Shown: positions 13,834 through 14,955 of the stretch, piece by piece
How the letters are laid out: each line of letters starts with the position of its first letter
Position numbering within the stretch: position 1 is the stretch's first letter
Assembly (NCBI GenBank): GCA_001790955.1
Contig: MGDP01000149.1
Coordinates: 1 to 38,208 of the forward strand
Reading direction: 5' to 3'
DNA: 38,208 nucleotides
Source of the DNA: Candidatus Tectomicrobia bacterium RIFCSPLOWO2_12_FULL_69_37
GTDB lineage: Bacteria; UBA8248
Made by a program: the position numbers and the translations under genes
The notes under the pieces: generated by a model
What the model was told of the DNA's origin: nothing
The model's input: only the letters and a program-made list of their open reading frames with translations
Databases searched by the model: none

Positions 13834-14076
13834 ATGGAACTGTCCGAGTGCCCGGCCTGCGGCCTGCGGTTCCGCGTCGCGCGGCCCAACGCCTGCACGG
13901 CCTGTGGGCGGGTGCACTGCCGCAAGTGCCTCAAGGTCTTCCGCGACGAGGGGGAAGAGGACCCCGAGGCCCGCTTCATCACTCTCTGCCCGGCCTGCGA
14001 GGGCGCCGTCGCCTGGCGCGTCGAGGCCCAGGAAGTTTCCCCCGCCACCTGGGCGGACTACGACCGGGGGCGCTAG
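13834..14076 (+). CDS. Small zinc-ribbon protein with four CxxC knuckles
   Basis: An 80-aa protein whose first 60 residues contain four CxxC pairs (CPAC, CTAC, CRKC and CPAC), enough to bind two zinc ions in a double zinc-ribbon. A charged insert (EGEEDPEARF) separates the third and fourth pairs. It is small and has no other domain, so it may bind nucleic acid or a protein partner. GGAGGAGGGGGG directly precedes the ATG. It lies 140 bases after pntB with no clear terminator or promoter between, so it may be a weakly coupled operon member. I do not recognise a named family. Confidence 0.75.
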   Translation: MELSECPACGLRFRVARPNACTACGRVHCRKCLKVFRDEGEEDPEARFITLCPACEGAVAWRVEAQEVSPATWADYDRGR

Positions 14077-14124: not shown

Positions 14125-14280
14125 ATGCCGCGGAAGCCGATGAAGGACATGGCCGCCGTGGCCGAGCTGGTGCTGAAGGAGCTCCGGCGGCGGGGGGGCC
14201 ACGACGCCCTGGCGGCCAAGCTCGAAGGGGTGATCCGGGCCGCCCGGGAGCAGCACGGCAAGGGGAAGGAGCGGAACTGA
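14125..14280 (+). CDS. Hypothetical basic 51-aa protein
   Basis: A 51-codon reading frame that starts at an ATG with GGAG about seven bases upstream. It encodes a helix-prone, strongly basic peptide (PRKPMKDM..., ending KGKGKERN-like in character). I do not recognise a family. Support for it being real comes from its ribosome-binding site and from the second copy of its last 15 codons at 14853, which differs by a single base (Gln to Arg) over 48 bases. Duplication alone does not prove coding, so confidence is moderate. Confidence 0.5.
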   Translation: MPRKPMKDMAAVAELVLKELRRRGGHDALAAKLEGVIRAAREQHGKGKERN

Positions 14281-14335
14281 GGGGACTCGCCTCCCGGCGG
14301 CAAGCAGGATCGCCCCGGCGGCGGCGGAGGCGCCC
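14232..14335 (+). repeat. 104-bp imperfect direct repeat, copy A (left of cspA)
   Basis: Matches copy B (14852-14955) at a constant offset of 620 bases with no indels. I count 8 mismatches in 104 positions (about 92% identity). It covers the last 16 codons of the 51-aa ORF, including its stop, plus the last 16 codons of an EamA-type transporter in the opposite direction. The right end coincides with the T-tract of the cspA terminator. Confidence 0.92.
14287..14334 (-). pseudogene. 3'-end remnant of an EamA-family transporter gene
   Basis: Sixteen codons read GASAAAGAILLAAGRR, against GASSVAGAVLIAAGR-stop for the intact transporter at 14907-15785. The changes are conservative (Val/Ile, Leu/Leu, Ile/Leu), as expected if the fragment came from a diverged but functional relative. 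The stop codon position reads CGA instead of TGA. Nothing upstream of this stretch resembles the rest of the transporter, because the cspA terminator begins there. Confidence 0.6.
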
Positions 14336-14372
14336 AAAATAAAAGCGGCGGCCGGTCTCCCGGCCGCCGCTT
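14336..14372 (-). terminator. Intrinsic terminator of cspA
   Basis: A perfect 13-bp stem (14343-14355 with 14360-14372) and a 4-nt loop are followed on the minus strand by a T-rich tract (complement of AAAATAAAA at 14336-14344). It ends the cspA transcript 26 bases after the stop codon. Confidence 0.93.
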
Positions 14373-14397
14373 CCGCCAGCGCCTCGAAGCGCTTGAA

Positions 14398-14604
14398 CTA
14401 GGCGCTCTTCTTCACGTTCGAGGCCTGGGGGCCTTTCGGCCCCTGGCCCACGTCGAAGGTGACCTTGTCGCCCTCGCTCAGGCTCTTGAAGCCCTCGGCC
14501 TGGATGGCCGTGTGGTGGACGAACACATCCGGCGCACCGTCGTCCTGGGTGATGAACCCGTAGCCCTTGGCGTCGCTGAACCACTTCACCGTTCCGCTCG
14601 ACAT
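14398..14604 (-). CDS. cspA: Cold-shock domain protein, CspA family
   Basis: A 68-aa single cold-shock domain that binds single-stranded RNA/DNA and acts as an RNA chaperone. RNP1 is KGYGFI (13-18) and RNP2 is VFVHH (27-31), both intact, in a five-strand OB fold. The aromatic surface residues (Trp8, Phe17, Phe28, His30) are all present. The ATG at 14604 has AAGGAG seven bases upstream. It is monocistronic: its own promoter, a leader of about 150 nt and its own terminator surround it. It is also flanked by the two 104-bp direct repeats, suggesting it entered this place as a module. Confidence 0.96.
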
Positions 14605-14759
14605 GCTTTCTCCTTCTCAGGAAAGAACCGGGTGATGCCGATGAATGGGGTCTCTTCCAGGAAGGGAGAACTTCCCGCTATCTGGCAGGAAACTTCACTC
14701 AATCCGCATGCCCAACAACGCCCTCCGGCCCGCAACCGGTGCGGCGGAAAGCAGACTCC

Positions 14760-14788
14760 ACTCTAGCAGGCCCCCGGAAAGAGGGCAA
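14760..14788 (-). promoter_or_regulatory. Sigma70-type promoter and long leader of cspA
   Basis: On the minus strand, TTGCCC (14783-14788) and TAGAGT (14760-14765) are exactly 17 bases apart. Initiation near 14753 would give a 5' untranslated region of about 150 nt (14605-14753). A long leader is a known feature of cold-induced csp mRNAs, where its folding controls translation; I did not work out a fold here. Confidence 0.55.
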
Positions 14789-14851
14789 CCAACGCATTCC
14801 CGCGTCCTGACCCGCTGGATTTCCGGATTCCGGATTCCGCCGATTCAAGAG

Positions 14852-14955
14852 GATCCGGGCCGCCCGGGAGCGGCACGGCAAGGGGAAGGAGCGGAACTGA
14901 GGGGGCTCACCTCCCGGCGGCAATGAGGACCGCCCCGGCGACGGAGGAGGCGCCC
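14852..14955 (+). repeat. 104-bp imperfect direct repeat, copy B (right of cspA)
   Basis: Second copy of the 14232-14335 sequence, overlapping the true 3' end of the EamA transporter. It also carries a detached tail of the 51-aa ORF. Mismatches are uneven: one in the 49 bases of ORF tail, seven in the 55 bases of transporter tail. Confidence 0.92.
14853..14900 (+). pseudogene. Detached 3' fragment of the 51-aa ORF
   Basis: Sixteen codons including the stop, identical to the end of the 14125-14280 ORF except one base (CAG to CGG). The upstream sequence is unrelated, being the far end of the cspA promoter region with a short GGATTCC-type tandem repeat (14823-14838). It has no start codon or ribosome-binding site of its own. 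Confidence 0.55.

Follow-up and report, generated by a model that had tools for sequence, protein, structure and literature searches.

A complete cspA unit between diverged direct copies of a convergent gene junction, a probable old insertion in a Candidatus Tectomicrobia genome

Template switching or break repair can give rise to templated insertions, in which the inserted segment is flanked by a duplication of its target. The target duplications usual for transposons are far shorter than 104 bases. According to two reports, homology-facilitated illegitimate recombination and Campbell-type integration leave orphan gene parts beside the incoming module (PMC3240628, PMC5361080). Our literature search for a matching repeat-flanked structure returned general mechanisms only. 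Here, we describe a locus in a 38,208-nucleotide contig of Candidatus Tectomicrobia bacterium RIFCSPLOWO2_12_FULL_69_37 (MGDP01000149.1, hereafter the window) that is, with reasonable probability, an old insertion scar, in which a cspA unit entered the junction between a 51-aa open reading frame (orf51) and an EamA-family transporter gene, the junction was duplicated, and the redundant tail drifted.

Table 1. Features of the cspA locus and its surroundings, in window coordinates
Feature	Position	Strand	Remarks
Small zinc-ribbon protein	13834-14076		FYVE and zinc-ribbon matches slightly under Pfam cut-offs
orf51, intact 51-aa ORF	14125..14280	+	No Pfam family
Repeat copy A	14232..14335	.	orf51 tail 49 + spacer 6 + apparently decayed EamA tail 49, stop lost
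Orphan EamA tail in copy A	14287..14335	-	GASAAAGAILLAAGR, then CGA where the stop was
Segment read as inserted, 516 bases	14336..14851	-	Complete cspA unit; ~63 bases precede the -35 hexamer
Predicted cspA intrinsic terminator	14336..14372	-	Hairpin + T-tract; 14336-14395 fold z = -5.7
CspA, 68 aa, cold-shock domain	14398..14604	-	PF00313, E = 1e-29
cspA leader, ~150 bases	14605..14759	-	Conserved blocks 14730-14744, 14688-14713, 14635-14647
Putative cspA promoter TTGCCC-N17-TAGAGT	14760..14788	-	Aligned with 11 other family cspA loci
Repeat copy B	14852..14955	.	Orphan orf51 tail 49 + spacer + functional EamA tail 49
EamA-family transporter, intact, 292 aa	14907..15785	-	PF00892, E = 3e-22

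The repeat pair can be read directly from the sequence. Its two 104-base copies lie at an offset of 620 bases and match with 8 mismatches and no indels (92% identity; self-blastn E = 1.5e-37), the longest identical run being approximately 32 bases. Each consists of the orf51 tail, a spacer and the EamA tail in convergent orientation, with orf51 ending at 14280 and the EamA stop codon, on the complement, starting at 14287. The symmetry of the repeat around both stop codons (49 + 6 + 49 bases) was noticed post hoc, and its limits are uncertain by 1-2 bases because of chance matches at the edges. The mismatches are located at 14252 in the orf51 tail, 14285 in the spacer, and 14289, 14304, 14305, 14310, 14321, and 14325 on the EamA side. 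This amounts to 1 in the first 49 bases versus 7 in the last 55, an imbalance too borderline for an argument to rest on (binomial 0.050; Fisher 0.063). A complete orf51 is present only at the copy A side and a complete EamA gene only at the copy B side.

The cspA unit between the copies is likewise directly visible, and it is complete and self-contained. The cold-shock domain (CSD) spans residues 3-66 of CspA, covering the whole small protein, and cspA is the sole convincing gene in the segment. Another 11 cspA loci in the family (L076, L077, L078, L079, L080, L081, L083, L084, L085, L092, and L111) align with that of the window at the promoter positions (TTGC... and TA...T) as well as in the leader blocks, located around GGGCATG..GA..GA.TGAAG and CATTCATC. 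This family-wide promoter and leader constitute a candidate cold-shock leader, and the window cspA has approximately 18-24 extra bases after the first leader block. The promoter and terminator calls are based on conservation and folding; a consensus scanner reported neither of the two. The match to Rfam RF01766 (cspA thermoregulator) was weak (53.1 bits, under the gathering score of 78), and much of it falls over the coding part. The left boundary of the insert coincides exactly with the end of the terminator T-tract. A sequence-only reading of this DNA had reported the repeat pair, the convergent gene tails in each copy, and a full cspA unit between them; its coordinates and counts proved exact, and promoter-like hexamers, leader, coding sequence and strong terminator are all present. 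Its view of cspA as a discrete unit within a formerly continuous convergent junction is supported, as is its dismissal of a recent simple tandem copy, and it was probably right to see an insertion here.

We compared the EamA tails of the two copies with those of nine distinct full-length homologues from the family (at least 50% identity). In copy B, the frame reads GASSVAGAVLIAAGR-stop. In copy A, the TGA stop has become CGA, so that the frame is open as far as 14119, and A and A occupy two positions at which S and V are common to all nine homologues; copy B keeps S, V and the stop. The 6 differences within the EamA gene are at codon positions 1, 1, 3, 1, 2, and 1. Third positions therefore account for 1/6 of them versus 13/22 in the only close pair of orthologues available within the genus, the zinc gene of the window and of genome G001, a weak difference that has the expected direction (Fisher p = 0.08). 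Since the stop, S and V are lost and third positions are unenriched, the copy A tail looks like a decayed, dead duplicate, which fits these data better than the functional end of a donor gene. The difference in the orf51 tail has no polarity, homologues carrying a third residue at that site.

Together, these results suggest that the tail-to-tail junction of orf51 and EamA probably received a whole cspA unit by insertion and was duplicated in the process. The unit is flanked on both sides by direct copies of one continuous target, as in an insertion with target duplication, and the gene tails have the identical convergent order in both copies, each gene being whole on its own side; this order of the parts argues that the junction was once intact and was then duplicated around the insert. 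The self-contained nature of the segment and the conservation of its promoter hexamers and leader blocks point the same way, as do the differing neighbourhoods of family cspA loci between genera and the losses in the copy A tail, which are those expected of a dead tail. The direction of the event is suggested by the internal logic of the locus.

We infer the following order of events. In the ancestral state, orf51 and EamA would have stood tail to tail with 6 bases separating their stop codons. A 516-base segment comprising promoter, leader, gene and terminator would then have entered the junction, and the same event would have duplicated 104 junction bases, so that the orf51 end was retained in copy A and the EamA end in copy B, with both genes intact. 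Afterwards, the redundant EamA tail of copy A would have drifted, losing its stop and conserved residues, and the redundant orf51 tail of copy B may have drifted too, less visibly. The simplest route would be a single template-switching or break-repair event, in which copying through the junction jumped to a cspA donor, continued for 516 bases, and rejoined 104 bases behind the point of departure. A template switch is perhaps the molecular step, a suggestion we put forward tentatively. Fill-in of a staggered break can also do this in one event; Ku was not found in the genome, which makes Ku-based joining of staggered ends unlikely. A fork-stalling hairpin at the junction was considered and rejected, as both repeat copies fold no better than shuffles. 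In their sequence outcome, a template switch, staggered-break fill-in, tandem duplication with deletion, and donor integration may all look alike.

Several observations count against parts of this scheme. Neutral drift predicts approximately equal change in the two dead tails, whereas 1 difference is seen versus 6-7 (p ~0.05-0.06). Copying within the genome predicts a cspA donor copy of this type, and the assembly, which is 91.6% complete, yielded none; the single other cspA found there, on contig C216, has a different leader, and a window-type leader is absent from the cspA genes found in both same-genus relatives. When the whole 724 bases were searched against plasmid and phage sequences, matches either were confined to cspA coding sequence, with at most 30% of the query covered, or were short and at chance level.

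The relatives searched did not contain orf51 next to an EamA gene of this type, so no empty site with a single junction copy was seen among them. In the two genus relatives, no significant match to orf51 and no close EamA was found, and the EamA nearest in sequence (66%, in G007) stops at a contig edge. A sister genus has homologues of orf51 (~47-55%) in five genomes, with no close relative of this EamA adjoining them. In the large stretches checked by tblastn, neither orf51 nor a close EamA relative was seen beside cspA, and the EamA query found no relatives in the genome contig set. The family cspA loci listed have one neighbourhood in each of two sister genera, and these two differ. Scanning with the upstream zinc gene yielded two loci, both lacking orf51, EamA and cspA by tblastn. 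Within the genus, G001 keeps this gene, with a terminator-like repeat and a transposase-like gene after it, and G002 showed no match to the upstream zinc-gene region. Among named relatives, a Candidatus Tectomicrobia groundwater metagenome assembly comes closest in this region (91% in the upstream zinc-ribbon gene), and a more distant one carries the label Nitrospinota. The zinc-ribbon protein shows 91% identity in G001 and 70% in the Nitrospinota-labelled assembly. On G001 contig C214 (L046, 2550-4340), a methyltransferase-like gene directly precedes the zinc-ribbon gene, and the transposase-like gene after it is split across two frames; the genes before the zinc gene in the window (pntAB and others) are unlike those of G001.

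We also scanned 318.6 kb of the window's own and related genomes for direct repeats of at least 45 bases and at least 78% identity. The other repeats appear to be paralogous genes (cspA arrays, EamA arrays), with annotation covering part of the pairs found, and no flanking repeats were seen at other cspA loci among the large loci scanned. EamA genes are abundant in the family, with 21 matches in the window's genome and up to 36 in relatives. One EamA tandem array (L100, 10824-12400, on contig C62 of G014) includes a truncated member; EamA tails are repeated there (93% over 59 bases) at a distance of 491 bases with an N-terminal fragment in between.

The sequence-only reading had favoured a Campbell-type crossover with a diverged homologue, which our results do not support. 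In such a homology-facilitated integration, DNA from a related strain, with cspA and a diverged orf51/EamA junction on it, would have recombined within the 104 bases, and the EamA tail of copy A would be that of the donor or the displaced one of the recipient. This would account for the uneven mismatches without drift, and it has bacterial precedent, both in one-sided homology integration (PMC3240628) and in orphan genes left behind by incoming modules (PMC5361080). The four amino-acid changes in copy A are chemically mild, and to that extent the substitutions can be called conservative, as had been claimed; the description does not hold for the lost stop and the two altered family-conserved residues. 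It is these losses, together with the third-position count, that speak against the tail of copy A resembling the end of a functional homologue. In addition, neither 104-mer has a further relative in 18 family genomes or elsewhere in its own genome, which also favours the insertion reading, and the donor itself must already have had cspA next to a truncated junction, so that the problem is only shifted to another place. Donor integration by homology at the junction is therefore a possible explanation whose main support has been lost, and we regard it as unlikely for either origin of the tail.

Similarly improbable, in our view, is a larger tandem duplication that took in the orf51 tail, EamA and a cspA further along, followed by deletion of EamA and the genes before cspA in the first copy. 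Large tandem duplications arise readily in bacteria (merodiploids, PMC3784515), and this scenario gives exactly the observed order with both gene ends intact, but two events would be needed, as would another cspA of this type located right of EamA and since lost; the only other cspA found in the genome differs in its leader. We consider it very unlikely that the contig is a chimeric assembly of two strains: the genome is fragmented (228 contigs) and the named relatives are metagenome assemblies, but an overlap that had been collapsed or repeated would show full identity and not 92%, assembly words longer than the longest exact match would keep the copies apart, and simply joining two normal strains would not yield gene tails cut at both edges of the insert. 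To the idea that the promoter-to-terminator unit is a small roaming cassette of the family, whose recurrent mode of movement stops at the T-tract and duplicates approximately 100 bases centred on convergent gene ends, like the 49-6-49 symmetry here, we give hardly any credence.

The locus, read as an insertion with junction duplication, is a clean rearrangement scar involving an ordinary gene and a known class of event, and alone it demonstrates no new mechanism. It illustrates in legible form how a genome can gain a small regulated gene while the neighbouring genes stay unbroken, the duplication leaving both converging genes whole, and it gives an overview, across the family, of a cspA promoter and leader conserved in an uncultured lineage. 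It resembles RF01766-type cspA genes in its cold-shock domain protein, long leader, terminator and weak 53-bit match, and differs from them in scoring below the gathering threshold of 78 and in having the leader blocks of this bacterial family. As in transposon target-site duplication, the insert is flanked by direct repeats; here, however, these are 104 bases long, there is no transposase in the insert, where cspA is the only convincing gene, no terminal inverted repeats were seen, and none of the inverted repeats of at least 20 bases listed for the region bounds it, features that do not fit a transposon insertion. Campbell or homology-facilitated integration differs in that the orphan tail here resembles a decayed duplicate of the resident gene end and not a donor allele. 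Compared with templated insertion, the donor sequence was not found, the copies are already 8% diverged, and the copying step is conjectural; as in templated insertion, mobile-element genes and longer homology are absent, and a segment foreign to the site lies between direct copies of the junction.
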